Source: a virus. Taken from it: a stretch of 21,581 bases of DNA. The notes under the pieces are model-generated. The model worked only from the letters and a program-made list of their open reading frames with translations, ran no database searches and was not told the origin of the DNA. Positions 2,182-21,255 of this stretch are shown piece after piece. Every line of letters starts with the position of its first letter. Position 1 is the stretch's first letter. Where the stretch lies: positions 1 through 21,581 of the IMG/VR virus record IMGVR_UViG_3300008107_001742, one strand, 5' to 3'. The position numbers and the translations under genes are program-made.

Positions 2182-4689
2182 ATGAACTACCTAGAACTAG
2201 GACTAAATGTAATTGCTATAAATGAAAACAAAGCAGCCATCTTTCCTTGGAAAGTTTACCAAACGCAGAAAATTACACAAGCGGAGCTTGATGTACAAAT
2301 GGCCGACCCTAGAGCCAAAGGAGTGGCAATTATTTGTGGGTCTGTATCTGGAGGCTTGGAGGTTATCGACATTGACACAAAATACCAGACCTACGAGCTT
2401 TGGGATGAAATTAGAAGAAGAATCAGACAAGAGTTTTATGATAAATTGCATATTGTCAAAACTAGAAGTGGAGGGTATCACCTCTACTATAAATGTGAGG
2501 AGATTGAGGGGAATCAAAAGTTGGCAAGTAGGCTACCAACAAATGATGAATTTAAAAGCAATCCTCACATCAAATTCTACTGTGTCATTGAGACACGCGG
2601 TGAGGCTGGTTATGTTGCGGCACCGCCTTCGAGTGGCTATGAGGTCTTGCAAGAAGGCATCAATGTTATTACAATCGAGGAGCGGCAAGAGTTACTCACG
2701 CTTATGCGATCCTTCAATGAAGTTGTCGAAGAACATATCATTGAAGCTCATCACAAGCCTTCTGCTAAAGACTATGGACTTTCCCCATTTGATGACTATA
2801 ATAGCAGATGCGACTTCACTGCGCTCATGGAAGAGTGCGGATGGCAAAAGGTTAAAAATGGAGGCCATAGAATTTACTACCGCAGACCAGGCTCGACAAG
2901 TGAACATAGTGGGTCGTATAATACCGAGATGGGACTATTTTCCGTATTCTCAACGAACACGCCATTTCAAGTTGGTAGGGGTTATAAACCAGCAGCAGTG
3001 TATGCCATCCTCAAATGCAACTCGGACTTCAAGATGGCGGCCAGAGCTTTACTTGAATCGGGGTATGGAGAGCGCAAACAAAACTTCGGAGGTAAATTAG
3101 AAAAAGAAGTATTTGAAAAAAAGAAAAGTGGAGTGGCAAAGGATGAGATCGTTACATACCTTGTTCGTAAGCATGACAAGAGCGTAGAAGAGGCTAGTGA
3201 AATTGTAGATAAGCTAGATGGGGAGTTTGGCCCAGAGATAAAAGAGTTTTGGGAAACTAGAGAAAAGAACGGCGTTGTAACACCTATTATACAACTAGAT
3301 AAGCTAGAAAGATTTTTGCATGAGAAAGGTGGGTTCTCGTTATATTTTTACGATTCTAATAGTGTAATATATAGACTTATTCGCATACAAGACGGTATGG
3401 TCGAAGAGAGTAGCACCGAACAAATTAAGAAATTTATTAAGGGGTTTATCAATAGGTTGCCTAGTTCGTTTGACATGGGGCTTGACCCACAGATGCTCAT
3501 GGAGACGATTTATAAAGGGTCTAACACTTACTTCTCGGATAATTTCTTTGAGTTCTTTGATCGGGCGAAGATTCTGTTTTTGGAAGATACAAAAGAGGTG
3601 TGCTATTTCCCCTTTACCAATGGAGTTGTAAGGGTTACTAAGGATGGCATGAAGCTGATGAATTACGGAGAGGTTGGAAAAGTGATCTGGAAGTCGCAAG
3701 TGCTAGATCATAAGATATATATAGAGGATGACTTTAAAATAGAGAACTGCGAGTACTTTAAATTTTTGGATAAGATAAGTGGAGGAGATAATGCGAAGCT
3801 GGTGTATTGCCTTAGTTTGATCGGTTATCTACTGCATAAATATAAAGACCCCGCTCGGCCGTTTGCGGTTATTCTAGCCGAGGAGACAGAGAACGAGGCC
3901 AAAGGTGGGGGAACGGGTAAGGGGATTTTTGTGAAGGCATTGGGGTATATCAATAACCTAGTGGTAGTGGATGGCAAGAATTTTAAGATAGACAAGAATT
4001 TTGCCTTTCAAAGGGTTGATTTGGACACTAGGCTTATAGCCATTGAAGATACTCGTAAGAACGTTGATTTTGAGGGTTTTTACTCGATCATAACCGAAGG
4101 TATTACGGTCGAGAAAAAGAACAAGGATGAGCTTAGAATCCCTTATAAGGACAGTCCAAAGGTAATCTTCACCACTAACTATACTATACCTAATAGCGGA
4201 AACCATGCTAAGAGAAGGCAAAAGATATTTGAATTTGCGCCTTACTTTTCGCCTAAGCATACCCCAGAAGATGAGTTTGGTCATAAGCTATTTAATGATT
4301 GGGATAAGGATGAGTGGAATAGGTACTTTAATTTGATGTTTCATTGCGTGTCGGATTACTTGGAAAATGGGGTTAGTGATATGCCAATGAGCGAGAGTTT
4401 AAGCCGTAAGCAAATTAGGGTTCAATTCGGTGAAGAGTTCTTGGATTATTTTATGACACTGGAAGGCGAGAGTGGGTTGACCATTACACTAGAAAGATTA
4501 TATAATGACTACCTAACTTTTACGGGTTATGATAAGAAAGATTACTCGTTAAAGAGGTTCAATAAGGCGATAGAAGAGACGTGCGGGATTTTGAAAATGG
4601 ACTACAAAGTTGTGCGAGATCGGGGTCAAAACAACAAAAAATGTTACGTTATTAACTTTAAGAAGGAATTGTCTGATGATTTCTTTTAG
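2182..4689 (+). CDS. Bifunctional primase-polymerase / SF3-like helicase
   Basis: This 835-residue replication protein joins an N-terminal prim-pol domain to a C-terminal helicase. The primase part (about residues 1-165) has the metal-binding IDID motif (62-65), RSGGYHLYY (95-103) and the closing ETRGEAGYVAAPPS stretch (137-150), typical of the bifunctional DNA primase/polymerase family. The middle (about 200-520) is less conserved. The helicase part has a Walker A GGGTGKG (575-581), a Walker B LIAIED (618-623), a sensor-like KVIFTTNY (660-667) and a candidate arginine finger in AKRRQKIFEF (676-685). This is the arrangement of D5/SF3-type phage and plasmid primase-helicases. It should synthesise primers and unwind DNA at the fork, probably acting at the repeat region immediately downstream. 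It starts at ATG 2182, eight bases after the nuclease stop. Confidence 0.93.
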   Translation: MNYLELGLNVIAINENKAAIFPWKVYQTQKITQAELDVQMADPRAKGVAIICGSVSGGLEVIDIDTKYQTYELWDEIRRRIRQEFYDKLHIVKTRSGGYHLYYKCEEIEGNQKLASRLPTNDEFKSNPHIKFYCVIETRGEAGYVAAPPSSGYEVLQEGINVITIEERQELLTLMRSFNEVVEEHIIEAHHKPSAKDYGLSPFDDYNSRCDFTALMEECGWQKVKNGGHRIYYRRPGSTSEHSGSYNTEMGLFSVFSTNTPFQVGRGYKPAAVYAILKCNSDFKMAARALLESGYGERKQNFGGKLEKEVFEKKKSGVAKDEIVTYLVRKHDKSVEEASEIVDKLDGEFGPEIKEFWETREKNGVVTPIIQLDKLERFLHEKGGFSLYFYDSNSVIYRLIRIQDGMVEESSTEQIKKFIKGFINRLPSSFDMGLDPQMLMETIYKGSNTYFSDNFFEFFDRAKILFLEDTKEVCYFPFTNGVVRVTKDGMKLMNYGEVGKVIWKSQVLDHKIYIEDDFKIENCEYFKFLDKISGGDNAKLVYCLSLIGYLLHKYKDPARPFAVILAEETENEAKGGGTGKGIFVKALGYINNLVVVDGKNFKIDKNFAFQRVDLDTRLIAIEDTRKNVDFEGFYSIITEGITVEKKNKDELRIPYKDSPKVIFTTNYTIPNSGNHAKRRQKIFEFAPYFSPKHTPEDEFGHKLFNDWDKDEWNRYFNLMFHCVSDYLENGVSDMPMSESLSRKQIRVQFGEEFLDYFMTLEGESGLTITLERLYNDYLTFTGYDKKDYSLKRFNKAIEETCGILKMDYKVVRDRGQNNKKCYVINFKKELSDDFF

Positions 4690-4731
4690 TGTCGTGAAGT
4701 TTTTGTCTAAATAATGTAGTCCATTTTGGCA

Positions 4732-4764
4732 AAATGTAGCGCAAATGTAGGGCAAATGTAGCGC
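4732..4764 (+). repeat. Three 11-bp iterons (AAATGTAGSGC)
   Basis: AAATGTAGCGC (4732-4742), AAATGTAGGGC (4743-4753) and AAATGTAGCGC (4754-4764) lie head to tail with no spacer. A decayed unit, AGATGTCGTTG, follows at 4765-4775. The 11-bp period is close to one helical turn, so a protein binding each copy would sit on one DNA face. Confidence 0.85.
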
Positions 4765-4775
4765 AGATGTCGTTG

Positions 4776-4839
4776 ATAATCAGTCTTGTAGTCCATGTAG
4801 TCCATTTATAATCAGTCTTGTAGTCCATGTAGTCCATTT
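4776..4839 (+). repeat. Perfect 32-bp tandem repeat with GTAGTCCAT sub-motifs
   Basis: Positions 4776-4807 and 4808-4839 are identical and adjacent, with the match ending exactly at both borders. Each unit starts ATAATCAGTCTT and contains two abutting GTAGTCCAT copies (4788-4796, 4797-4805; 4820-4828, 4829-4837). A further copy is at 4716-4724. An inverted 13-bp copy (AAAATGGACTACA) is at 4594-4606 in the end of the primase gene. Confidence 0.95.
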
Positions 4840-4968
4840 TTTTAATATTTTAGCCAGGGGGTATTTATTTTTATATTTTTTAATAGGGTGGGGTATATAG
4901 AGAATTGAGGGAAAATGGGAAAATGGTATTTGGTAAACAATGGGATTTTTAAACTTTAAATATTAACT

Positions 4969-5370
4969 ATGGAATTGGTCAACGTACTGGAAGGAGTTTG
5001 CTTTGTCATGGGTCAGGAGATTGATAGGGTTAAGAAAAAAGATAGGTATAGGGAGCTTGTAGTTTGTAGGCACTTGTTCTACTACCTCGCAAAATATTTC
5101 TATGGAGCTAAACTAAAAGATATTGCCAAGGTAACTGGAACGGATCACACTAGCGTTATTCATGGTATATCCGTAATAAACGATTTGATTAGCATTAAAG
5201 ATCAAGATGTGATGAACGCGGTTGAGCAATGCCAAACCTATATAAGGGAAAAGTACCAAGCCGATAAGAAGATAAGTGTATATGTACCCTACGATGTCAA
5301 CATAACGACATTTAGCGAAATGCTGACCAAAATCTATAAATGTAGGGTAATCATCTCACCGCTAAGCTAA
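4969..5370 (+). CDS. Stand-alone DnaA domain IV (DNA-binding) protein
   Basis: This 133-residue protein contains the C-terminal DNA-binding helix-turn-helix domain of DnaA without the AAA+ ATPase part. The domain covers about residues 25-95: a basic N-terminal helix (RYRELVVCRHLFYYLA), a turn with LKDIAKVTGTDHTSVIHG (49-66), and a closing helix up to REKY. The DHT triplet (59-61) matches the residues that in DnaA contact the 9-mer box. The ATG at 4969 follows an A/T-rich leader (TTTAAATATTAACT). With no ATPase it cannot act as a full initiator. It more likely binds specific DNA, and the iteron region directly upstream is the obvious candidate target, for initiation or for autoregulation. The domain call is strong; the target is inferred. 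Confidence 0.85.
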   Translation: MELVNVLEGVCFVMGQEIDRVKKKDRYRELVVCRHLFYYLAKYFYGAKLKDIAKVTGTDHTSVIHGISVINDLISIKDQDVMNAVEQCQTYIREKYQADKKISVYVPYDVNITTFSEMLTKIYKCRVIISPLS

Positions 5371-5398
5371 ATGCCAAATTTGGGGCTTAAAATGGCTT

Positions 5399-5488
5399 TT
5401 AAAGGCAATGTTGGTCTTGTAGTAATCCTATTATGATTGCTCCAATGATTAAGGCAAGAATTAGGTTGATGAATTGCTTTGATTTCAT
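5399..5488 (-). CDS. 29-aa small membrane peptide
   Basis: On the minus strand, ATG at 5488-5486 begins MKSKQFINLI, continues through a clean hydrophobic helix (LALIIGAIIIGLL) and ends QDQHCL, stop 5401-5399. A short basic N-terminus followed by one transmembrane helix is the pattern of a small membrane peptide. The leader before the ATG (TTTAAACCAACTACC) resembles that of the upstream minus-strand gene (TTAAAACCAACGTT), supporting translation. No homologue is recognised. It is short, so it could be spurious, but composition and leader argue for it. It is probably transcribed from the promoter at 5792-5762, beyond the hairpin at 5502-5519. Confidence 0.5.
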   Translation of the reverse strand: MKSKQFINLILALIIGAIIIGLLQDQHCL

Positions 5489-5501
5489 GGTAGTTGGTTT
5501 A

Positions 5502-5519
5502 AAGGGGCTTGCGCCCCTT
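5502..5519 (-). terminator. GNRA-capped hairpin between two minus-strand genes
   Basis: In the minus-strand transcript a perfect 7-bp stem (AAGGGGC/GCCCCTT) is closed by GCAA, a very stable C(GCAA)G tetraloop. It lies just after the stop of the 66-aa gene and before the start of the 29-aa gene. It is flanked by two copies of TTGGTTTAAA (5494-5503 and 5518-5527, plus strand). Only three T follow the stem, so it is a weak terminator at best and may instead be an attenuator or an RNA-stabilising element. Confidence 0.55.
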
Positions 5520-5522
5520 GGT

Positions 5523-5723
5523 TTAAAAATTTGCTTTGAATCTGTTACCATTCGAAAGATCAACCCAAACTTCACCTTTTAGATCATCAGCCATCTTTCT
5601 TGTTTTGAATACTTTTCTCAAGGCATCACCATGTGCTTCCTCAACTGATTTACCTGTTTCCAATGCAAACTCATAAGAGAATTTGTAGAGTACTTGTTCT
5701 GTTCTTGTTAATTCTAAATTCAT
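5523..5723 (-). CDS. 66-aa unknown protein, opposite strand to all virion genes
   Basis: The minus-strand frame from ATG 5723 encodes 66 residues beginning MNLELTRTEQ, with a predominantly helical first half (EQVLYKFSYEFALETG, then VEEAHGDALRKVFKTRK) and a short beta-like end (GEVWVDLSNGNRFKANF). No family, membrane helix or clear helix-turn-helix is recognised. In-frame ATGs further upstream (5750, 5753, 5759) lie at or before the expected transcription start, so 5723 is preferred; it has a leader with TTAAAACCAACGTT directly before it. A perfect Bacteroidota promoter sits at 5792-5762. It is the first gene of a small leftward unit in an otherwise rightward genome, so it is likely expressed on a different schedule, for example early or during lysogeny. 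Confidence 0.65.
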   Translation of the reverse strand: MNLELTRTEQVLYKFSYEFALETGKSVEEAHGDALRKVFKTRKMADDLKGEVWVDLSNGNRFKANF

Positions 5724-5761
5724 AACGTTGGTTTTAATTGTGTTTGTCATCATTGACATCA

Positions 5762-5792
5762 CAAATATACACAACATTTTTATTCCACCAAA
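5762..5792 (-). promoter_or_regulatory. Bacteroidota sigma-ABfr-type promoter, leftward
   Basis: Read on the minus strand, TTTG (5792-5789) is followed after exactly 19 bases by TATATTTG (5769-5762). This matches the known Bacteroidota consensus TTTG-N19-21-TANNTTTG without mismatch. Transcription should begin near 5755, giving a leader of about 30 bases before the ATG at 5723. Confidence 0.8.
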
Positions 5793-5836
5793 TTTATTTA
5801 CAAATATTTTTTAGATATTTATTTTTCAACATCGTG

Positions 5837-5865
5837 TTGACCCGCGTCCTAAATGTAGCTAAAAT
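5837..5865 (+). promoter_or_regulatory. Possible rightward promoter before the packaging genes
   Basis: TTGACC (5837-5842), a 17-base spacer and TAAAAT (5860-5865) resemble a sigma-70 promoter, 22 bases before the ATG at 5888. The Bacteroidota-type TANNTTTG is not met (nearest is TAACTTTA). The location, at the start of a long rightward gene set, is suitable, but the match is weak for this host group. Confidence 0.3.
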
Positions 5866-5887
5866 ATAGTCTAACTTTATTCGTATA

Positions 5888-6097
5888 ATGAAGCGAAAAG
5901 GTTTCTATATAAAAAAGGGTAAGGATAGTTCGGTATATATTCATATATACGTTACTGATTTTCAACAATATATAGCAGATTTAAAAGGAGATGACGGCTG
6001 GGTAACCTTCCGTTTATTTGAGCGTAATGAGGTTGACGAGAAAGGTCATACCCATAATTTAGAAGCAATAAAACAAAACAAAAGTGCAAATGACTGA
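5888..6097 (+). CDS. Unknown 69-aa phage protein upstream of small terminase
   Basis: The 69-residue protein starts at ATG 5888 with MKRKGFYIKKGKDSSVYIHI. It has two beta-strand-like segments (SVYIHIYVTDFQQYI and GWVTFRLFERNEV) and a polar C-terminus (HTHNLEAIKQNKSAND). It is soluble, basic at the start, and without a recognised family. It overlaps the small terminase start by eight bases, so the two are probably translated together, and it is the first gene of the rightward packaging/structural series. A role in packaging control is possible from context only. Confidence 0.65.
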   Translation: MKRKGFYIKKGKDSSVYIHIYVTDFQQYIADLKGDDGWVTFRLFERNEVDEKGHTHNLEAIKQNKSAND

Positions 6098-6446
6098 GGT
6101 CGAGAATAAACAAAAAGAAATCACAATTGCCGCCAAGCCGGTAAGGTTGAGGAAGAATGGAGAGCCATACAAACCAGTCGGAGGCGCAAGGCCTGGAGCT
6201 GGTAGGCCTAGACGAATGGACGAGCAACAGATCATTGAGAAGCTACAACCTATGGCAGATACAGCTTTCCGCATATTGCATGAGAAAGTAGCGCAAGGAG
6301 ACATGAAGGCGATACAACTGTATATGCAATACTTCATAGGGCTGCCGACCCAAAAGGTTGAGTCAAAGATTGAGGGGCAATTGAATCAAGTACAGATAGA
6401 GGTGATCAAGCCAAATGTTCAGATGTTGGAAGAGGCGACAAATTAG
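6090..6446 (+). CDS. Terminase small subunit (putative)
   Basis: The small terminase recognises the phage DNA end or packaging site and loads the large subunit. The 118-residue protein has the proline/glycine-rich GGARPGAGRP motif (31-40) that precedes the DNA-binding region in many small terminases of this type. This is followed by a helical part (QQIIEKLQPMADTAFRILHE) and the segment MKAIQLYMQYFIGLPTQKVE (72-91), common in Bacteroidota phage small terminases. ATG 6090 is chosen over GTG 6084, which adds only two residues. It overlaps the upstream gene by eight bases. Its position before the large terminase supports the call, although a 265-bp gap separates them. Sequence conservation in this family is low, so identity rests on motif plus order. 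Confidence 0.8.
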   Translation: MTEVENKQKEITIAAKPVRLRKNGEPYKPVGGARPGAGRPRRMDEQQIIEKLQPMADTAFRILHEKVAQGDMKAIQLYMQYFIGLPTQKVESKIEGQLNQVQIEVIKPNVQMLEEATN

Positions 6447-6711
6447 CAGTTTGTTTAACCTTTTCTATTTAACATAATACTAGTTATTAGTACATCGCAA
6501 TTTTGTTTAAGCAAAATTGTATGACAAAGTGGCAAAGAGGCGCAGAATTAATGGGGGGGACTTAAAGTTTTTACTTTTCGTGGGTGGCGGGGGCAAGAAA
6601 CATTTTTGGTAGCACTAAAACCATTGTCTAAATAAAATTAATGACCCCACTTTTATACCCACTTTTCAACTTGGTTTACCTTTACTAAATTTTTAGAAAA
6701 TCACTAAAACT
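6447..6711. other. 265-bp non-coding gap between terminase genes
   Basis: No gene is supported here; all frames are broken by stops and the longest candidate is 14 codons. The gap holds an inverted repeat (6498-6519), a run of seven G (6553-6559), a G-rich patch (GTGGGTGGCGGGGGC, 6580-6594) in otherwise AT-rich DNA, and an AT-rich leader to the large terminase ATG. Such a gap is unusual inside a tightly packed operon. It could contain a packaging site (cos or pac), a promoter or an RNA element; none is proven. Confidence 0.45.
6498..6519. repeat. Inverted repeat CAATTTTG/CAAAATTG
   Basis: Eight-base arms CAATTTTG (6498-6505) and CAAAATTG (6512-6519) surround a 6-base loop TTTAAG. It can form an RNA hairpin or be a dimeric protein site. 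No T-run follows, so it is not a classical terminator. Confidence 0.6.
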
Positions 6712-7854
6712 ATGGACGCTAAACTTCAGACTAATAAGATCTTTGAAATATTGCAAGACTCAAAAAAGCGTATTACGGTCATGCAAGGAGGTTCCAGATC
6801 TGGAAAGACTTACAATATTCTTATTTGGTTTATTGTAAAGCTACTCCAAGAGAATGGCAAGACATTAACAATAGTAAGACAATCTCTTCCAAGTATAAAG
6901 GGTTCAGTCCTACGCGACTTTGTGGACATACTTTCACGCTTAGGAATATATTCAGAGGATAATCACAATAAAACGGAGCAAATATATCAGCTTAATGGTA
7001 ACGTGGTCGAGTTCGTTAGTGCTGATCAGCCACAAAAGATTCGAGGTAGGGCTAGAACCTATTTATTTTGCAATGAGGCCAATGAACTTAGCTACGAAGC
7101 ATGGATGCAACTTATCATGCGTACAGAAGGTAAGATAGTGATTGACTATAACCCATCGGACATCTCCTCATGGATTTACGATGATGTGATTCCAAGAGAC
7201 GATGCTGATTTTTATATTACTACTTTTAAAGACAATCCCTTCCTACCGAAAGAACTGGTTGACGAATTAGAGCGTCTGAAAGATGCAGACCCTAACTATT
7301 GGCAAATCTATGGCCTTGGTGAGCGTGGACTCTCTCAAGACCTCATCTATACGCACTATCGCACTACCGAAACAATGCCCGAAGGCGAGACGGTGTATGG
7401 CTTAGACTTTGGATTCAACGTGCCGAGCGCAATGGTGAAAGTTGTATTCTATGAAAATGCAGCGTATGTACAAGAGTTGATCTACGAAACAAAACTTACT
7501 ACAAATGACTTAGTGGAAAAAATTGTAGCTTTGGGCATAGATAAGTTTGATGAAATTTATTGCGATGCCGCAGAGCCAAAAACTATTGAAGAGTTGGTAA
7601 GACAAGGACTAAATGCGAAGCCAGCTAATAAGGATGTACTTGAGGGAATACGTTCCGTTAAGGCTACTCCACTATACATTCATCAAGATTCCGTAAATTT
7701 ACTTAAAGAGGTAAAAAATTACCGTTGGAAAACGGATAGGAATGGTAATAAACTTGATCAACCGGTCAAGTTCAATGACCACATCAGTGATGCTATGAGA
7801 TATGCAATATTTTCTAAATTAACAATCCCAAGTGTTACTTGGGGAGCAATATAA
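6712..7854 (+). CDS. Terminase large subunit (ATPase and nuclease)
   Basis: This is the packaging motor, which uses ATP to pump DNA into the prohead and cuts the concatemer. The 380-residue protein has Walker A GGSRSGKT (26-33), a Walker B with catalytic Glu in YLFCNEAN (117-124, Glu122), and a C-terminal RNase H-like nuclease with acidic residues in YGLDFG (Asp232), IYCDAAEP (Asp285) and NDHISDAMRYA (Asp356/Asp360). Length and motif order fit the Terminase_3 family. The DHISDAMRYA ending is a classic signature. It starts at ATG 6712 after the non-coding gap and ends five bases before the portal start. Confidence 0.95.
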   Translation: MDAKLQTNKIFEILQDSKKRITVMQGGSRSGKTYNILIWFIVKLLQENGKTLTIVRQSLPSIKGSVLRDFVDILSRLGIYSEDNHNKTEQIYQLNGNVVEFVSADQPQKIRGRARTYLFCNEANELSYEAWMQLIMRTEGKIVIDYNPSDISSWIYDDVIPRDDADFYITTFKDNPFLPKELVDELERLKDADPNYWQIYGLGERGLSQDLIYTHYRTTETMPEGETVYGLDFGFNVPSAMVKVVFYENAAYVQELIYETKLTTNDLVEKIVALGIDKFDEIYCDAAEPKTIEELVRQGLNAKPANKDVLEGIRSVKATPLYIHQDSVNLLKEVKNYRWKTDRNGNKLDQPVKFNDHISDAMRYAIFSKLTIPSVTWGAI

Positions 7855-7858
7855 CAAC

Positions 7859-9370
7859 ATGGGATTATTTGATGTTTTTAAGAAAAAAGGTATCAATCCT
7901 TACCCTACCAATGTAGTGCAAATGGTAGGCACAAATACAAGTGCGATTCAAAATTATACGGGACTTAGCTATGTGAACGAAGGATACTTAGGCAATGCCG
8001 ATGTATATTCTATCGTTAGCTTTTTGGCTCGTAAGAGTGCATCTATTCCTTGGTATGTTTATCAATTGAACCCAGGCGAGAAGGCTCGTACAAATTTAAT
8101 GCGTTATAAGCAACTATCAAAAGGTGTTGCTAATCGTGGCGCATACGAGCAAGCATTGATCGCACGTAAAAACGCATATAGTGAGAACATCATCATGGGT
8201 ACTCCACTAGCCAGACTTTTGGAGAAGCCAAATAATTACCAATCTCAAGACCAATTCTTTGAAAACTTATTTGGTTATCGCTATTTAAGTGGAGAGGGTA
8301 ATGTTTATGGCAATGATGGCAACTTTGGAGGCACTTTTTCGGAGCTTAATATTTTACCAACGCAATATTTAGAGATTTATCCAGATCCTAAGGATGTATA
8401 TAACATTTTAGGTTACAAATTGCAAGTTGGAGGCGGTGTTGATTTACCTAAGGAGAAAGTAATGATGTGGAAGAGTTGGAATCCCGATTTTGATGTAACA
8501 ACTCGCACACATTTAAGAGGTTTATCGCCACTTCGTGCCGCTTATAAGACACTTCGCATGAGTAATAACGCGGCGGATGCAAGTGCAACAATGACGGGTA
8601 ATGGAGGAGCAAAAGGAGCGATAACTCCTAGACCACTAGGTAATATCGTGCCATCTTTCACTATTGAGCAAGCAAATGACATAAAAAGAGCCGTTAATGA
8701 GAATTTAAACGGCGTTGATAACAAGGGAAAGGTTGCGGTACTTCAAACTCCATGGGATTACATGAATTTTGGATTATCAAGCGTTGATATGGAGCTAGTA
8801 AATACACTTCGTATGTCAATGCACCAATGGTGTAGGGTGTTCGGCCTTCCCGCGGTTTTGTTTGATGTTGATACATCATCATACAATAACTATCAAAACG
8901 CAATGCGTGATCTCATTACCAACACAATTATTCCGATGTGTTGCCAACTTCGTGATGAGTTAAATAAATTCCTCGTTCCTCGGTACGGAGAGGATGTATT
9001 TATTGACTTTGATATAACGGCGTTACCCGAAATGCAACAAGACATGGAGAGAATGGTTCGTTCACTTCGTGATGCCAATTGGTTGACGTTTGATGAGAAG
9101 CGCGTAGCAATGAATTACCAAGAGAAAGAGGGTGCATTTGAGTACGCATATATTAACCAAGGTCTAATACCAATAGAACAAGCGGTAATGGACTTGACTA
9201 TCCCACCAAGCGAAAATATTGAAGATGGCATGGATAATGGAATGGATAACATCTCAAACAACAGACGAGGAGATAACGCAGAACGTGATGACGAAGTATC
9301 CCAAGCAGAGGAGCGAGCGGAATTGCGAGCGAGAAGCGAAGATGATGACATCATTGAGGATAGCATATAA
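7859..9370 (+). CDS. Portal protein (HK97/phage_portal family)
   Basis: The portal forms the dodecameric ring through which DNA enters and leaves the capsid and to which the connector binds. The 503-residue protein begins MGLFDVFKKKG and shows the conserved N-terminal segment ADVYSIVSFLARKSASIP (47-64) with following WYVY. A stem region contains LRMSMHQWCRVFGLP, VLFDVDTSSYNNY and the helical AMRDLITNTIIP. The C-terminal 50 residues are acidic and low in complexity (GMDNGMDN, then EDDDIIEDSI), as in many portals. ATG 7859 is preferred over a GTG at 7832, which would extend it into the terminase gene. It lies between large terminase and the MuF-type gene, the standard order. Confidence 0.93.
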   Translation: MGLFDVFKKKGINPYPTNVVQMVGTNTSAIQNYTGLSYVNEGYLGNADVYSIVSFLARKSASIPWYVYQLNPGEKARTNLMRYKQLSKGVANRGAYEQALIARKNAYSENIIMGTPLARLLEKPNNYQSQDQFFENLFGYRYLSGEGNVYGNDGNFGGTFSELNILPTQYLEIYPDPKDVYNILGYKLQVGGGVDLPKEKVMMWKSWNPDFDVTTRTHLRGLSPLRAAYKTLRMSNNAADASATMTGNGGAKGAITPRPLGNIVPSFTIEQANDIKRAVNENLNGVDNKGKVAVLQTPWDYMNFGLSSVDMELVNTLRMSMHQWCRVFGLPAVLFDVDTSSYNNYQNAMRDLITNTIIPMCCQLRDELNKFLVPRYGEDVFIDFDITALPEMQQDMERMVRSLRDANWLTFDEKRVAMNYQEKEGAFEYAYINQGLIPIEQAVMDLTIPPSENIEDGMDNGMDNISNNRRGDNAERDDEVSQAEERAELRARSEDDDIIEDSI

Positions 9371-11074: not shown

Positions 11075-12250
11075 ATGAGCGACATTAAATCATTCGAAGC
11101 TGCTCTTGAGGCTAAAATGGCCGAGCAGAAAGCTGAAGTAGCTCTCGCAACTGAGAAAGCTGCTAAAGCATTTGAAAGCAAAGTTGAGGAAATCAACGAG
11201 CAAATTGCTAAGAACAACAAGACAATTGCTGAAGCAAGAGAAGAAGTTCTTTCTGCTAAAGCTGCATTTGGTAAAATCTCTGCTGCTGAAGATAAGAAGG
11301 TAGCTCAATCTTACAATGAGCATATCTCTGAAATCAAATCTGCGATCGGAGATGCAATCGTTAAGGGTTATTCTTCTATCAAAGAAGCTGCAAGAACAAA
11401 CGGTAAAGGTTTCAATTTTGAACTTGACCTTAAAGCAGTTGGTGTAATGACCGAAGGTGCTAACCTTACTGGTAATCCTTACACTTCTTATATCAATTCT
11501 CCAGCTTTACGTTCTTTCGTAAACCCACACTTGAGAAGCGTATTTAACATCATTCCAGTTTCAACTGGTTCAGTATCTTTCCCTAAAGGAAATACTCCAG
11601 TAGGTGAAGGTTCTTTCGGTAAGCAAACTGAAGGTTCTGGTAAAGCACAATTGGATTACGATGTAACAGTTGTAAACAAAGTGTTGCAATTCATAGCTGG
11701 TTATGTAAAGGTATCTCGCCAAATGGTTGACGATCTTCCTTTCTTGAATAGCTATTTGCAACAATCTTTGATCGAAGATTTCCAAAGAGCTGAAGATACA
11801 TATTACTTGAATGACTTGGCTTCTGGCGCAACAGTTGGTTCTTCTTCTGGTGCTAATACTGCCGAGAAATTCGTAGATTATGTGGCTCAATTGGGCGCAC
11901 TTAACTGGCAGCCAAACTTGATCCTTACCACATTTGCTGGTTGGAGCAACGTATTGAAAACCGTTCCTTCTGGTGGTTCTTACTCTGTTCCTGGTGGTAT
12001 CACAATTGATGCTCAAGGTAACATCAGAATGATGGGTATTCCAGTTATTCCACATAGCTTGGTTACTGCGTCTAAGGCTTATGTTCTTGACACAACTAAG
12101 TTTTCTATTGCTCAACAGAGCGGACTTGCAGTTCGTTCTACAGAGTTCGACCAAGACGATTTCGTGAAGAACTTAATTACGTTCAGATGCGAAGCACGTT
12201 GCGACCTCATGAGCTTCCAGCCTACAGCTTGTTTGTATGGCAACATCTAA
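11075..12250 (+). CDS. Major capsid protein (HK97 fold)
   Basis: This protein forms the icosahedral shell. The 391 residues comprise an N-terminal helical, Ala/Glu/Lys-rich part (about 5-105) that is the likely scaffolding delta domain, and the HK97-fold body from about 120. Family features include LRSFVNPHLRSVFNIIPV, YDVTVVNKVLQFIAGYVKVS and the C-terminal RSTEFDQDDFVKNLITFRCE region. Codon choice differs from neighbours: ATC is common for Ile where other genes use ATA, and GCT/TCT/GGT are frequent. This fits strong expression. It has its own A-rich leader (TTAAATTAACAAA, 11062-11074) instead of an overlapping start. A strong terminator follows the stop. The cleavage site by the encoded protease cannot be fixed from sequence. 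Confidence 0.94.
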   Translation: MSDIKSFEAALEAKMAEQKAEVALATEKAAKAFESKVEEINEQIAKNNKTIAEAREEVLSAKAAFGKISAAEDKKVAQSYNEHISEIKSAIGDAIVKGYSSIKEAARTNGKGFNFELDLKAVGVMTEGANLTGNPYTSYINSPALRSFVNPHLRSVFNIIPVSTGSVSFPKGNTPVGEGSFGKQTEGSGKAQLDYDVTVVNKVLQFIAGYVKVSRQMVDDLPFLNSYLQQSLIEDFQRAEDTYYLNDLASGATVGSSSGANTAEKFVDYVAQLGALNWQPNLILTTFAGWSNVLKTVPSGGSYSVPGGITIDAQGNIRMMGIPVIPHSLVTASKAYVLDTTKFSIAQQSGLAVRSTEFDQDDFVKNLITFRCEARCDLMSFQPTACLYGNI

Positions 12251-12271: not shown

Positions 12272-12299
12272 GGGAGTCCCGTAAGACTCCCTTTTTTTT
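12272..12299 (+). terminator. Intrinsic terminator after the capsid gene
   Basis: A perfect 7-bp stem GGGAGTC (12272-12278) / GACTCCC (12285-12291) with loop CCGTAA is followed by eight T (12292-12299). It is the clearest terminator in the window. The next start codon is only three bases after it, so downstream genes need read-through or a promoter inside the capsid gene. Confidence 0.92.
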
Positions 12300-12302
12300 A
12301 CT

Positions 12303-12812
12303 ATGCCTTATTCATACAATTACTTTAAAGATGATTTTAGAGATCATCTTATAAAAAATTTCTCATCCGATATTAAAATATTGGATGTCGGCCCAGGTTC
12401 GGGTAGCTATTACGATTTGCTTTGCAAAGATTTTACAAATATTGATGCGGTTGAGGTTTACGAGCCTTACATAGATCAATTTAATTTAAGAGATAAGTAT
12501 AAAAACGTTTACAATCAAGATATACTAGAGTTTAATTATAACTCTTACAACTATTTAATACTTGGGGATGTACTAGAGCATTTGAGCATAAATGATGCAC
12601 AAAACTTACTTGCAGATTTAACATTTAAAAATATATATTCCATGGTTGCAATACCTTATGAAATGGAGCAAGATGCAGTAGGAGGCAATATATACGAAAT
12701 ACATAAACAATCTGATTTAACAATATATAACTTTACTGAAAAATATCCATTGATGAGATCATTCAAATTTAATGGTTATTATGGCTTATACTTAAATTAT
12801 AATTTTATATGA
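12303..12812 (+). CDS. Class I SAM-dependent methyltransferase
   Basis: A 169-residue Rossmann-fold methyltransferase. SAM-binding motif I is KILDVGPGSGSY (25-36); the acidic residue after the second strand is in DAVEVYEPY (Glu51 region); a motif III-like QDI follows (72-74), and motif IV-like LGDVLEHLS is at 87-95. The C-terminal half is short and its substrate domain is not recognisable, so the target (sugar, protein, nucleic acid or small molecule) is unknown. DNA methyltransferase motifs such as DPPY or PCQ are absent. It starts three bases after a terminator and overlaps the glycosyltransferase as ATGA. Pairing with a GT4 enzyme suggests it may methylate a sugar or a glycan-bearing protein. 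Confidence 0.85.
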   Translation: MPYSYNYFKDDFRDHLIKNFSSDIKILDVGPGSGSYYDLLCKDFTNIDAVEVYEPYIDQFNLRDKYKNVYNQDILEFNYNSYNYLILGDVLEHLSINDAQNLLADLTFKNIYSMVAIPYEMEQDAVGGNIYEIHKQSDLTIYNFTEKYPLMRSFKFNGYYGLYLNYNFI

Positions 12813-13765
12813 ATATAGTTTGCTCAATACATCTTTATCCTCCGCAGCACAATTGCGGTGCAGAATGGATGTTACATCACATTAACAAAGATTTGATTAG
12901 CAAAGGACACAATGTAAGAGTGCTTTTGCATCAAGCCAATCATTATAAGATTAAAAATAATTATGTGTTTGATGGCGTGGATGTTTTCCCACCAAGCGAT
13001 AACGTAATAGATAATTTGATGCGTTGGAGTAATGCCGTAATTACGCATTTGGACTATACTAGATGGACAATTAGTGCGGCTAAACTTTATAGAAAACCCG
13101 TTTTTCATTTAATACATAATAGCCATCCTTACCCCGAAATCATTGACGCAAACACCAATCAACACGTTGTGTATAACTCTTTTTGGCTAAAAGAGAAATT
13201 GCAATATAATTGGGATAACTTTATACTAACGCCTCCCGTTGACTATCGATACTACGATCTAAAGATTGACCCCGCGAAGAATGAATATATTACTCTAATT
13301 AACACCAACGAGAACAAAGGCGGTAAGATATTTGAACAAATTGCTCGTGCATTGCCAAATAAGCGGTTTTTAGGCGTTTTAGGGAGTTATGATCCTCAAA
13401 TGGATTTAAAATTAGTGCCTAATACACCAGATATTGCGCAATACTACAAGCAAACTAGGATACTATTAATGCCAAGTGATTACGAGAGTTGGGGAAGAAC
13501 GGCAACCGAGGCTTATTGCTCTGGGATTCCAGTTATAAGCACAATGGCCGAAGGACTCGTAGAGAATTGCGGAAAGGCTGGCATATTCATAAAAGATAGG
13601 AATGATATTAAAAGCTGGGTTAAGGCAATTACTGAACTGGATGATGCCAAAAAATATAGTGAGGCATCCAAAAAAGCAAAAGAGAGATCAAGAGAGCATG
13701 ATCCGAGAAAAACGCTTGATGAATTTGAGGTCTGGTTCCGAGAAATGGTTAATAAATATAAGTAA
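12809..13765 (+). CDS. GT4-family glycosyltransferase
   Basis: A 318-residue GT-B fold glycosyltransferase. The N-terminal half begins MNIVCSIHLYPPQHNCGAEW with the Gly-Ala loop after the first strand (PPQHNCGAEWMLHHI), typical of GT4 acceptor domains. The C-terminal donor-binding half has a basic NENKGG segment (167-172) and the family EX7E motif (Glu226 in SDYESWGRTATEAY to Glu234), which binds the nucleotide sugar. The closing region ends in a helix over the cleft. The acceptor could be a virion protein, host surface glycan or other. Its position between the capsid and connector genes, where tailed phages normally have none, marks it as an inserted gene. It is coupled to the methyltransferase by ATGA and ends two bases before the connector. 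Confidence 0.9.
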   Translation: MNIVCSIHLYPPQHNCGAEWMLHHINKDLISKGHNVRVLLHQANHYKIKNNYVFDGVDVFPPSDNVIDNLMRWSNAVITHLDYTRWTISAAKLYRKPVFHLIHNSHPYPEIIDANTNQHVVYNSFWLKEKLQYNWDNFILTPPVDYRYYDLKIDPAKNEYITLINTNENKGGKIFEQIARALPNKRFLGVLGSYDPQMDLKLVPNTPDIAQYYKQTRILLMPSDYESWGRTATEAYCSGIPVISTMAEGLVENCGKAGIFIKDRNDIKSWVKAITELDDAKKYSEASKKAKERSREHDPRKTLDEFEVWFREMVNKYK

Positions 13766-13767
13766 GT

Positions 13768-14331
13768 ATGGCGATATATATAAACGGGATAACGGTACTC
13801 GCTGATGGCGTAGTAGAGCCGGTTTCCCTACCCGATGCTAAAGATTGGATGAAAATAGATTATAATGATGAGGATGGGCTTATAAAAGATTTGATTAGTG
13901 CATCTAGGGTACATTTAGAGAAAATAAGCGGTGTGGCTTTGGTAAATAAGTTATTGAAAGTTAATCTACAAACTACGGGAATAGCTCCAGGTGTTTGGAT
14001 GATTGATTTACCTTATAGCCCTTTATTATGTGTTGATAGTGTAGCCATTAAAACTGGTATAAATACTTACACTACTTTGGTAAAAAATGAGGATTATGAA
14101 GTAATTGGTGGGAAATTATGGTTATATTCACAAGGGACTTTTAATGTTCAATATCAGTGCGGTTATGGCTCAATTCCAGAGGACTTGGCAAATGATATAC
14201 TTGCTTTGACTTCATGGCAATTTGAGAATAGAGGCAAAAAGATGAACGCTGACAAATCCTCTTTACTTAGCCAATATCCTAATTGGGATGGCCTTAACTA
14301 TCATCAATACAAAAAAGTATTTATAGTATAA
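13768..14331 (+). CDS. Head-tail connector (gp6-like)
   Basis: This protein sits under the portal and forms the adaptor ring between head and tail. The 187-residue protein has the typical opening PVSLPDAKDWMKIDYNDEDG (18-37), then LIKDLISASRVHLEKISG (38-55), characteristic of the phage gp6-like head-tail connector family. Beta-rich segments and a final helix (PEDLANDILALTSWQFENRG) that resembles the C-terminal helix of the family complete it. It is longer than HK97 gp6, in line with the YqbG/gp15-type adaptors. It starts at ATG 13768 and overlaps the next gene by one base (TAATG). Confidence 0.87.
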   Translation: MAIYINGITVLADGVVEPVSLPDAKDWMKIDYNDEDGLIKDLISASRVHLEKISGVALVNKLLKVNLQTTGIAPGVWMIDLPYSPLLCVDSVAIKTGINTYTTLVKNEDYEVIGGKLWLYSQGTFNVQYQCGYGSIPEDLANDILALTSWQFENRGKKMNADKSSLLSQYPNWDGLNYHQYKKVFIV

Positions 14332-15226: not shown

Positions 15227-15658
15227 ATGGCAAAAATTCAAGGTTCTACCCAAAGCGTAGATATTAGCACAGACAATGGTTCTACTTGGAAATCGCTTAT
15301 TTGCTTGCGCACTTCAAGCGTAAACGGTACAGTTGATTCAACCGTAGAACAAACAAACTGCGGAACTTTCACATCTATTGGTAAGCCCAATATGACTGTT
15401 GATTTTGATGCAATTTGTGAAACCGCTCCTGGAGGTTCAGAGGTTAGTTACTCATCTTTATTGGGTTACTTTAACGCAGGTACTCAAATTGCGGTAAGAG
15501 TTCAAAGTCCAGTTTTTTCTGGATCAAGTGCTGGTGCTGCATATTATCAATCATTTGATGGTTACATCACTTCTTTAACTCTTAATCAATCAACTACTGA
15601 ATTTATCAATTTCTCTGGTACAATTTCATCAAACGGACTTATTGATATTACTGCATAA
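15227..15658 (+). CDS. Major tail (tube) protein
   Basis: The 143-residue protein should polymerise into rings forming the tail tube. It is almost all beta, with the pattern of TP901-1/lambda-type tube proteins: a start MAKIQGSTQSVDISTDNGST, a loop TVDSTVEQTNCGTFTSIG, a central strand pair, and closing strands SLTLNQSTTEFINFSGTIS. It stands immediately before the tail-chaperone genes and the tape measure, the canonical place for the tube gene. It has a separate A-rich leader (CAAAAATAAACAAAA before the ATG) similar to that of the capsid gene, and a relative preference for GGT and TCT, consistent with high expression. A second tube-like gene lies at 20629. Confidence 0.82.
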   Translation: MAKIQGSTQSVDISTDNGSTWKSLICLRTSSVNGTVDSTVEQTNCGTFTSIGKPNMTVDFDAICETAPGGSEVSYSSLLGYFNAGTQIAVRVQSPVFSGSSAGAAYYQSFDGYITSLTLNQSTTEFINFSGTISSNGLIDITA

Positions 15659-18153: not shown

Positions 18154-20629
18154 AGCAGAAAAATATAGAATAAATTTTAAGACTCTACAAGGCCAAGAAG
18201 CCCGAGTAGAGTTTTATTTTGAGGGATTTACGGGTGCAACTACGGAACTTCGTGGAGGCATTAAGCCATTTGTATTAAAAGAGTTTAATACGAATGATGA
18301 CTTATTTAAGCCTATTAGACCACAAATGGCCGAGATTGAAATAATAGGTAGTGCAAGTGGAGTGAGTATTGATAATTTTTTAATGGATAAGGATAACGAT
18401 ATTGAGGTTATCTTTTATTATGATAGCCTTATTACACCTTATTGGAGAGGATGGCTTTTGCAAGATGACTTCCAAGAGATTTGGGAGGACACTAATCACA
18501 TTTTAATAATAATAGCCATAGATGGCCTTGGATATAATAGAGATTTTCCATTATCAAATGCGGGTGCGGAAGTAACCGCAAAAACAACGCCTTTGCAATA
18601 TATTGAGTATTGTACGGCAAATGCGGTCAAAGATTGGAATAAGTTTTATTGTTTTAATAACTTGTTTCATCCATTAATGACCGATAGTGCAACTTATACC
18701 TCACTTGATCAATGCACTATTGATCCTAAGACCTTCCAAATACAAAGCACCGAGTACGAATCATCTTTAGAAGTTCTTGACAAAATAAATAGAGGTTTTA
18801 ACCAAAATTTATTTATGTATAATGACAATTGGTGGCTAATGAGAATGGAGGAGCTTTACATTCCCAAAACGGAGAACTTAAGAGGATTTGTTGAGAATAG
18901 TAGCGTTAGAACGGCTATTAACACAAGATATGATATTAACGTAGGCAATAACGAGGATATTAAGTTAATCTCTCCTAGTGCTATTAGAAATATAAATAGA
19001 AGAACAAAAGAGAATAGTGTAACATTTAATTACGAGCAAATTGGCGAGCTAATTACCAATGGTACATTCTCAAGAGGTAGCTTACTTACTACAACGGCTA
19101 TACTTAAGCAATATAATTTAAATAGTTTCGATTATAAATATACGGCTACTCCTAACCCCGATTATTGGGGATTTGGTGGGACAACACCTCCAACGGGTAG
19201 TGTAACAAGAAACGAAGAATGGTCAAATACCTCTTATGGTTATTTGGAGGATAATTATGTGAGGGTGCCAGGCGAGCAAGTTATAACAACGGGTTACGAT
19301 TATTATTTAAGAAGCCAAGAGGTTAAAGTATTTACGGGTGAGAAATTGGTAATTGGAGTGGATTATAAATTTGAGACCGATTTTACCGAGGATGGCTTTT
19401 TTAGACAAATGGTAGTAATGCTTGATGGCGCGGCTAACAATTATTTCCTTGGTCAAGATGGCAAGTGGTATTTAACAACAAGCACTTTTACCATAAATAC
19501 AAATACCGATCAAGAATGGTTTATTGGTACAAAGTATAATCAAGCGGGTAGTCCCGAGCCTACGGAATATGTGAGCTTAAATGTGGAGAGTGAACCAATA
19601 CCAGATAACGGAGTTATTAAAATAGCTTTCATTTTAGATTACCACGCATTACTTGACTCTACAAACGAGATGCACATAAAGGCTCTTAATTTTGAAATTA
19701 TTGAGCAATTTAACGGAATAAGTGCGCAACCATTGGTAGGTGTTAAAACGGCATTTACTAAAACGGACACTTTATATAATAAGCAAGAGAATGACATTTT
19801 TTTACAAGATGGCTTTTCTTGGAATTATAAAGGCACTATATTAAATAGTGGCGGAACATCAATTTTAGATAGTACATGGTATCGTTATAGATTCCCAACG
19901 GAAGAAATGAGTTTTCGTAAAGAAAATAATATTGCTTATTGGGAGAATACAAGGTATAATCGTACAAAGTTAGATGCTAATTTTTATGGCATTTTAAATA
20001 ATGGCGATCGCATTGGGTTACACAATACGGTAATATTTGTGGACGATGACCCCGATAAAGTGTACGCAATAGTAAATCTTAAAGAAATAGATTTTGCAAG
20101 TGCTACATGGAGTGCAACTTTACTTGAGGTATGGGATGAGAATAAAGATGGGTTAGATTTAACCGATAAAACATTTGATGCCGATGTAACTACCGGTACT
20201 TACAACAACCCCGTAAATGTACCTTGGACTGTTGTAACGGCGGCCGATTTCTCAATAGTTGGAGGTTATCAAATAACTTACAATGGCGTAGTAAGTATTA
20301 ACGAGCCTATTGTAATAAGTTTGGCGGGTAACATTAATACAACTAGCCCCGCTCCATTACCTCCCGTTTCTACTACGTTTAGAGTAAAACAAAATGGAGT
20401 AACGATAAAAACACAAACGTATCCCGTTAGTACAAATCCACAAGCGTTTACGTTTAACTTATCTCCTAGCGGTACAATTACAATAAATCCAAGTGATGTA
20501 TTTACCGTAGAGGTTAGTAATAACATAACTCAAATACAATATACTAGCGGATCATTTACTATTGACTATCAATATCCTGGTACTCTAACTTATGACACAT
20601 TTAGTGAAAAATATATATACAACAAATAA
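18146..20629 (+). CDS. Large distal tail / hub-like protein with inserted carbohydrate-binding-like region
   Basis: An 827-residue protein directly after the tape measure, in the position of the distal tail/hub protein. It begins at TTG 18146, eight bases inside the tape-measure gene; the frame MAKAEKYRINFKTLQGQEAR is conserved-looking from this point, and no early ATG exists. Residues about 1-130 (FEGFTGATTELRGG, ITPYWRGWLLQDD) resemble the N-terminal domain of Bacteroidota phage distal-tail proteins. ELITNGTFSRG at 301-311 marks the start of a jelly-roll-like segment (to about 520), as in CBM4/9-type carbohydrate-binding modules. The C-terminal part (about 690-815) is Thr/Ser/Pro-rich and beta, resembling a fibronectin-like or receptor-binding domain. 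Likely role: tail tip and first host contact. Domain borders are inferred. Confidence 0.72.
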   Translation: MAKAEKYRINFKTLQGQEARVEFYFEGFTGATTELRGGIKPFVLKEFNTNDDLFKPIRPQMAEIEIIGSASGVSIDNFLMDKDNDIEVIFYYDSLITPYWRGWLLQDDFQEIWEDTNHILIIIAIDGLGYNRDFPLSNAGAEVTAKTTPLQYIEYCTANAVKDWNKFYCFNNLFHPLMTDSATYTSLDQCTIDPKTFQIQSTEYESSLEVLDKINRGFNQNLFMYNDNWWLMRMEELYIPKTENLRGFVENSSVRTAINTRYDINVGNNEDIKLISPSAIRNINRRTKENSVTFNYEQIGELITNGTFSRGSLLTTTAILKQYNLNSFDYKYTATPNPDYWGFGGTTPPTGSVTRNEEWSNTSYGYLEDNYVRVPGEQVITTGYDYYLRSQEVKVFTGEKLVIGVDYKFETDFTEDGFFRQMVVMLDGAANNYFLGQDGKWYLTTSTFTINTNTDQEWFIGTKYNQAGSPEPTEYVSLNVESEPIPDNGVIKIAFILDYHALLDSTNEMHIKALNFEIIEQFNGISAQPLVGVKTAFTKTDTLYNKQENDIFLQDGFSWNYKGTILNSGGTSILDSTWYRYRFPTEEMSFRKENNIAYWENTRYNRTKLDANFYGILNNGDRIGLHNTVIFVDDDPDKVYAIVNLKEIDFASATWSATLLEVWDENKDGLDLTDKTFDADVTTGTYNNPVNVPWTVVTAADFSIVGGYQITYNGVVSINEPIVISLAGNINTTSPAPLPPVSTTFRVKQNGVTIKTQTYPVSTNPQAFTFNLSPSGTITINPSDVFTVEVSNNITQIQYTSGSFTIDYQYPGTLTYDTFSEKYIYNK

Positions 20630-21255
20630 TGGCTGAAGTAGTAACTGCGCAAGGCTTAGTAATAGCGGTAACAAATGCCGATGGGAATGTTTACCCATTT
20701 GCTTGTACTACAACCGCATCCATAACCATAAATAGGGACTTTATAGAATTAGCACCTAAAACAAATGGCGTTTTTCGTGAATATATAAAAGGCCGTAGTG
20801 GGTATAGTGTTAGTGGAAGCGGTCTAGTAAAAATGGTTGAAAGTTATACGCAACCTATAACTTTTTTTGATACCTTTATTGAGGGTACGGATAGTGAGTT
20901 TATTGGTTATTTAGACATTATTGATGCAAGTGGTAATTATAAAGTTTATAAGTTTTCTTGCATTGTTCAAGATTTAACTCTTACTAACGCAACGGGGCAA
21001 AACGCCTCATATAGCTTTACTTTACAAGGTACTGGGCCTATAACCGAGATAAGTGTAGTTGATAGCTATACGGTAACAAGTGGAAAGATTACCTCAAGAA
21101 GTACGGCATCCTACAAATTAATAGGTGTTGCAATTGATGGGGTATGGTATTATAATTATTCGGTAACGGACGAAGGAGGTGGCGTTTTCACTATAACTAT
21201 TGGTGCGGCATATAATGGGGAAACGGTTAAAGCGGCATATTTACAGTTATTTTAA
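20629..21255 (+). CDS. Second tail-tube-like protein with C-terminal extension
   Basis: The 208-residue protein begins MAEVVTAQGLVIAVTNADGN and has the core pattern of TP901-1-type tail-tube proteins: SITINRDFIELAPKTNGVFR, YIKGRSGYSVSGSGLVK, then FFDTFIEGTDSEFIGYLDII and closing strands TGQNASYSFTLQGTGPI (residues about 25-138). After it comes a separate beta-rich extension (about 142-208, SYTVTSGKITSRS to YLQLF). A second tube fold downstream of the hub gene suggests a tail-tip ring or a decorated tube subunit, rather than the main tube, which is encoded at 15227. It starts by TAATG overlap with the upstream gene. The fold call is by motif pattern; function is inferred. Confidence 0.72.
   Translation: MAEVVTAQGLVIAVTNADGNVYPFACTTTASITINRDFIELAPKTNGVFREYIKGRSGYSVSGSGLVKMVESYTQPITFFDTFIEGTDSEFIGYLDIIDASGNYKVYKFSCIVQDLTLTNATGQNASYSFTLQGTGPITEISVVDSYTVTSGKITSRSTASYKLIGVAIDGVWYYNYSVTDEGGGVFTITIGAAYNGETVKAAYLQLF

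Follow-up and report, generated by a model that had tools for sequence, protein, structure and literature searches.

The window analyzed here, a virus record of 21,581 nucleotides, holds the replication and morphogenesis module of a tailed phage. Within its head genes, an intrinsic terminator and two enzyme genes lie between the capsid gene and the connector gene:

11075..12250, plus strand: HK97-fold major capsid protein gene (Pfam Phage_capsid, 5e-15; phrog_10 major head protein, 4e-28), to which the enzyme cassette is linked
12272..12291, plus strand: stem-loop of an intrinsic terminator, with its T8 at 12292-12299 and the methyltransferase start codon 11 nt past the hairpin end
12303..12812, plus strand: slot gene, a minimal class I SAM methyltransferase (MT) of 169 aa with an ATG start and the motif ILDVGPGSG; other enzymes take its place in relatives
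12809..13765, plus strand: core gene, a GT4 (GT-B fold) glycosyltransferase (GT) of 318 aa with an ATG start (phrog_26352, 6e-64; Pfam match)
13768..14331, plus strand: gp6-like head-tail connector gene (Pfam Phage_connect_1, 3.9e-7), by synteny always directly 3' of the GT gene

The MT and GT open reading frames overlap via ATGA. A sequence-only reading of this DNA had placed a SAM methyltransferase and a GT4 glycosyltransferase, coupled in this way, between the capsid and connector genes, and the open reading frames, Pfam matches and AF2 models bear this out. Elsewhere in the window, two phrog_1407 tail-tube-like proteins are encoded apart from each other within the tail module (15227-15658 and 20629-21255), and a small protein resembling a stand-alone DnaA domain IV (TGTDHTSVIHG) is encoded at 4969-5370, as it is in the relatives L194 (11708) and L196 (12312).

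The GT matches Pfam Glycos_transf_1 (3.4e-13), and its EX7E motif (E226-x7-E234) is invariant in 29 sequences; the NENKGG loop is likewise invariant in the alignment of relatives. An AF2 model built from that alignment (pLDDT 90.4) shows a GT-B fold, with MshA (3c4q) as the closest fold in the PDB (TM 0.79) and with MshA, BshA and BGluT among the fold matches at ~8-17% identity. The top PDB sequence match is the tetrahydrobiopterin glucosyltransferase 9v0l (E 1.3e-12, nearly full length). Fold, domain and motif together identify the protein as a retaining glycosyltransferase of family GT4. A prediction of the acceptor from structure was rejected, as the model matches generic GT4 enzymes and names no substrate. 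The window copy is without five residues (ANLPN) after D199 that are present in 204 of the 205 other near-full-length copies, the sole exception being a shortened match in the relative L158; the loop concerned has lower confidence, and the gap reflects either a 15-nt deletion private to the window or an error of assembly.

The MT has Pfam matches to Methyltransf_23 (5e-5) and Methyltransf_11 (5e-4), both slightly under the curated cut-offs. Residues D28, G30, G32, G34 and E51 are invariant in 28 sequences, as is the GD..EH segment in the alignment of relatives, and the AF2 model from that alignment (pLDDT 91.9) has a class I fold matched by many class I methyltransferases. A Rossmann-like fold, a DxGxGxG motif I and the acidic residue that closes strand 2 make this a class I SAM-dependent methyltransferase; so generic a fold led us to reject a substrate assignment from structure here as well. 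A hydrophobic segment was looked for in both proteins and found in neither. Against close relatives, and counting only pairs with dS of at least 0.1, the GT has a dN/dS of ~0.03-0.10 and the MT one of 0.07-0.21; these low values point to purifying selection, and hence to the maintenance of both genes. In one relative otherwise close to the window (L100/G001, 7482-8494) a TAA near the start breaks the GT reading frame, and the gene may therefore be dispensable.

The terminator announced by the sequence-only reading holds up on calculation. Its stem, GGGAGTC/GACTCCC, is followed by T8 and has a minimum free energy of -13.4 kcal/mol (z -3.3): a GC-rich hairpin ahead of a U run, as expected of an intrinsic terminator. 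By strict criteria, a hairpin with a T-run lies 3' of the capsid stop codon in 118 of 129 distinct loci; of the other 11, most carry a shorter or bulged hairpin when inspected by eye; the same strict test at eight other gene ends gave 0/806. The stem sequences diverge widely, with changes in both arms, as in GGGAGTC/GACTCCC versus GGGAGAC/GTCTCCC. A promoter between terminator and MT was rejected, since only 11 nt separate the hairpin from the start codon. The motif TANNTTTG occurs in the window at a frequency not above chance, and has no plus-strand match from the capsid stop to the MT start. The simplest reading is that the terminator guards and limits the capsid message, leaving the enzymes and the connector to read-through. 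Phage T7 also carries an intrinsic terminator, T-phi, behind its capsid gene, gene 10. Both terminators separate a very highly expressed capsid gene from genes behind it that are expressed less; unlike T-phi, that of the window group doubles as the left edge of a slot in which enzymes are swapped.

The 129 loci were gathered by scanning viral contigs with GT, capsid and MT queries, removing identical sequences and requiring at least 1.7 kb 3' of the capsid gene. The GT gene lies behind the capsid gene in all 129, and directly before the connector gene wherever the connector is reached. Because a GT query selects for the GT, the count was repeated on loci found by capsid query alone, and the GT is again located between capsid and connector in 96/96. 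Both figures count distinct sequences, many of them closely related, and not independent events. Capsid identity to the window falls to ~57% across the loci. The closest cultured capsid relatives (~29%), Flavobacterium phage 11b and Cellulophaga phage phi10:1, have a similar order of head genes, but their capsid-connector interval holds small hypothetical genes only, with no annotated GT or MT. The constancy of the gene in both counts, together with its absence from the interval in these cultured phages, marks the GT as a fixed gene of the phage group and not a recent insertion; the earlier description of the pair as inserted is wrong for this group, and the synteny in 129/129 loci rules out chance or a single insertion.

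Acquisition of the GT from a bacterial genome finds no support either: a scan of 84,980 bacterial and archaeal genomes (GTDB) with the GT alignment, which reaches fairly close relatives only, returned none. Among cultured phages, the only relative is found in Streptomyces phage TurkishDelight (31% identity over 87%). Its gene, gp20, likewise has the capsid gene on one side and the tail genes on the other, but encodes a 678-aa double GT4, stands two genes from the capsid gene and has no adjoining annotated methyltransferase. A scan with TerL gave distant relatives only (36-45%), in Bacteroidota and Cloacimonadota metagenome-assembled genomes, and a host named on this basis would be a guess.

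The gene preceding the GT is far less constant. The slot between terminator and GT holds an MT in 50 of the 129 loci, a protein with an invariant EDD motif in 41, an FkbM methyltransferase in 25, the EDD and FkbM proteins together in 7, and an extra HNH-like endonuclease gene, assigned by eye, in 6; it is empty in none and always contains an enzyme of a glycan type. The FkbM protein matches Methyltransf_21 (1.5e-10). The EDD protein (185 aa) has no weighty match in Pfam, NCBIfam or the PDB, and its hhalign comparison with GT25 proteins is not significant; its one motif makes it a putative GT-A glycosyltransferase.

Slot type changes at least 20 times on a capsid tree of 85 rows, and the well-supported branches alone force at least 6 changes for the MT and at least 11 for the EDD protein. 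Two relatives with identical capsid proteins, L155 and L158, carry EDD and FkbM slots, respectively. In another pair (L008 and L022) the capsid DNA is 97-98% identical and the GT genes are 96-98% identical outside their first 150 nt, and yet the slots are non-homologous. The exchange junctions fall at the terminator on the left and, on the right, inside the GT gene within its first ~150 nt, showing that recombination between these points swaps the slot. The 5' end of the GT shows a small linkage with slot type, in pairs that are not independent. HNH-like endonucleases have entered the slot at differing places (L090 5152, L139 2365, L151 3664, and also L261, L269 and L270), and homing endonucleases may drive the exchange. 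Beyond what the sequence-only reading described, then, the GT is the core gene of the cassette, the MT is interchangeable and the terminator is part of the layout.

Relatives of the MT also recur beside glycosyltransferase genes in phages with other head genes. Among distant relatives taken at E <= 1e-26, one locus (L184) has the order portal (phrog_156), capsid (phrog_267), MT, GT2-GT4 fusion and SU10-like adaptor, the stretch from capsid to adaptor being 3404-6499, and another (L187) has a GT4-GT2 fusion, an MT with overlapping start, scaffold and capsid; the head genes of both differ from those of the window group. In three further contigs (L183, L186 and L188; 21-158 kb) the MT is fused, as the N-terminal portion, to an HtrL_YibB domain in a protein of ~780 aa, located inside glycosyltransferase arrays (in L186 at 83-301 and 6001-8331). 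Thr/Pro-repeat proteins, perhaps mucin-like glycosylated fibres, are encoded nearby in L186 and L188. The MT is also homologous to gp78 of the mycobacteriophage prophiGD91-2 (hhalign E 1.5e-19), a phage of the Che8 subfamily in which gp78 neighbours annotated glycosyltransferases, another methyltransferase and an HNH gene.

Virion glycosylation is described for the mycobacteriophages Che8, Corndog and Myrna (Freeman et al. 2023, as cited in PMC12619734, PMC11256854 and PMC12363180). Che8 encodes a GT2-O-methyltransferase fusion (gp108) and a GT25 protein (gp110), the latter reported to be essential for capsid glycosylation (PMC12363180). As in the window group, glycosyltransferases are phage-encoded in these systems and have methyltransferase and HNH genes nearby, and through the homology of its MT to gp78 the window shares their combination of phage glycosyltransferase genes with homologous tailoring enzymes. 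The arrangement differs: in Che8 the glycosyltransferase cluster lies at the far genome end and the adaptor gene directly 3' of the capsid gene, whereas the cassette of the window group is fixed between capsid and connector and has a GT4 as its core enzyme. In mycobacteriophages, glycans reportedly sit at the C-termini of the capsid and tail-tube subunits (PMC12619734). The window capsid, which ends in ..QPTACLYGNI, and its relatives (..YGNI or ..YGAI) have no terminal Ser/Thr, unlike Che8 (..KTGS), and the S/T near the capsid end is G in some relatives. A C-terminal Ser/Thr acceptor of the mycobacteriophage kind accordingly finds no support in the window group, which suggests that another site on the capsid or another virion protein would be modified. 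An S/T-rich stretch at capsid residues ~250-262 was weighed as acceptor and was not separable from other sites. The capsid of L184 has a terminus, ATGSL, that resembles KTGS of Che8, and a glycosylated Ser/Thr at the very end might well be sought there.

We consider it probable that the cassette serves virion glycosylation, with the GT as core enzyme and a swappable tailoring enzyme beside it. This reading is based on the linkage to the capsid gene, the recurrence of such genes beside other capsid genes and the homology of the MT to a gene of a mycobacteriophage glycosyltransferase cluster; that GT and MT showed no membrane segment, and 12 larger relatives no integrase match and no thymidylate-synthase-type base modifier, also favours it. 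Transcripts of the very highly expressed capsid gene that pass its terminator would yield small amounts of two cytoplasmic enzymes. The GT4 enzyme would move a sugar from a host nucleotide-sugar onto a virion protein during particle assembly, with the capsid protein as the likeliest acceptor, and the slot enzyme would tailor it: by methylation, which caps the sugar, in the window; in relatives, by extension through the putative GT-A enzyme, by capping through the FkbM methyltransferase, or by both. Decoration of the virion with a methylated glycan had been proposed from the sequence alone. The decoration remains the best-supported reading, despite a capsid without the C-terminal Ser/Thr; the methylation would be confined to phages whose slot holds a methyltransferase, the MT being one of several interchangeable partners there.

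A protein acceptor is not what the matches of the GT in the PDB suggest: by sequence and by fold they are mostly small-molecule or lipid GT4 enzymes (tetrahydrobiopterin glucosyltransferase, MshA, BshA). They could instead reflect synthesis by the GT of a soluble glycoconjugate of the pterin or malate kind, as made by BGluT, MshA and BshA, which the slot enzyme would methylate and which would serve in takeover or counter-defence. The low identity of the fold matches is typical of any short GT4, however; such a product leaves the strict linkage to the capsid gene unexplained, and swaps of the tailoring enzyme better fit an exposed structure, so we regard this explanation as very unlikely. Glycosylation of modified bases in the phage genome, as a protection against restriction, is yet a little less probable. 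DNA-modifying phage glycosyltransferases are well known, diverse virus-encoded ones included (cited in PMC12619734), but here the GT sits in the head module and recurs with methyltransferases and another putative glycosyltransferase. PF00303, a thymidylate-synthase-type base modifier, was not found by a search with working controls among 12 larger relatives, some of which may be incomplete records, which weakens the case for a phage DNA glycosyltransferase system. The least probable explanation is that the two genes are morons, passengers without a virion role that are retained as harmless. The preceding terminator resembles the layout of a moron insertion and the GT is broken in one relative; morons, however, are patchily distributed, and the GT is present in every counted locus under strong purifying selection.

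Modification of the host surface late in infection, resulting in superinfection exclusion or in less progeny sticking to debris, deserves more weight, although we judge it unlikely; of the readings considered, only decoration of the virion ranks above it. Serotype conversion is the role of many phage glycosyltransferases, the weaker GT matches fall under the PHROGs label 'moron, auxiliary metabolic gene and host takeover', and swapped tailoring enzymes also fit receptor arms races. Yet neither GT nor MT has a membrane segment, and the cassette has a fixed position in the head module and recurs beside other capsid genes. The same 12 larger relatives have no match to Glycos_transf_2 (GT2/GtrB-like) and none to Phage_integrase, and surface conversion is mainly a trait of lysogens. 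With membrane parts missing from GT and MT and a GtrB-like part from the 12 relatives, serotype conversion of the Gtr type is disfavoured.

If virion glycosylation is the function, recombination in the slot, which is observed, would give close relatives different glycan types. We tentatively propose, as a possibility short of an even chance, that near-identical aquatic phages switch serotype in this way, showing different coat glycans through a fixed core GT and a recombined tailoring enzyme. If true, this would be the phage counterpart of bacterial O-antigen switching, kept by selection on the particle surface through grazers, host lectins, or adsorption to other cells and particles.

In the literature accessible to search, the demonstrated cases of virion glycosylation in tailed phages come mainly from mycobacteriophages. 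Phage virion glycosylation itself is already known; new here, on the best reading of these genes, would be a capsid-linked, partner-swapping form of it outside actinobacteriophages. The capsid-linked GT is carried throughout a large and diverse group of uncultured aquatic phages, and the closest cultured capsid relatives of that group infect Flavobacteriia. If the reading is true, sugar coats would be common on the virions of aquatic phages, a single gene would reveal which glycan type they carry, and the role of phage glycans in nature, where antibodies are absent, would become testable.
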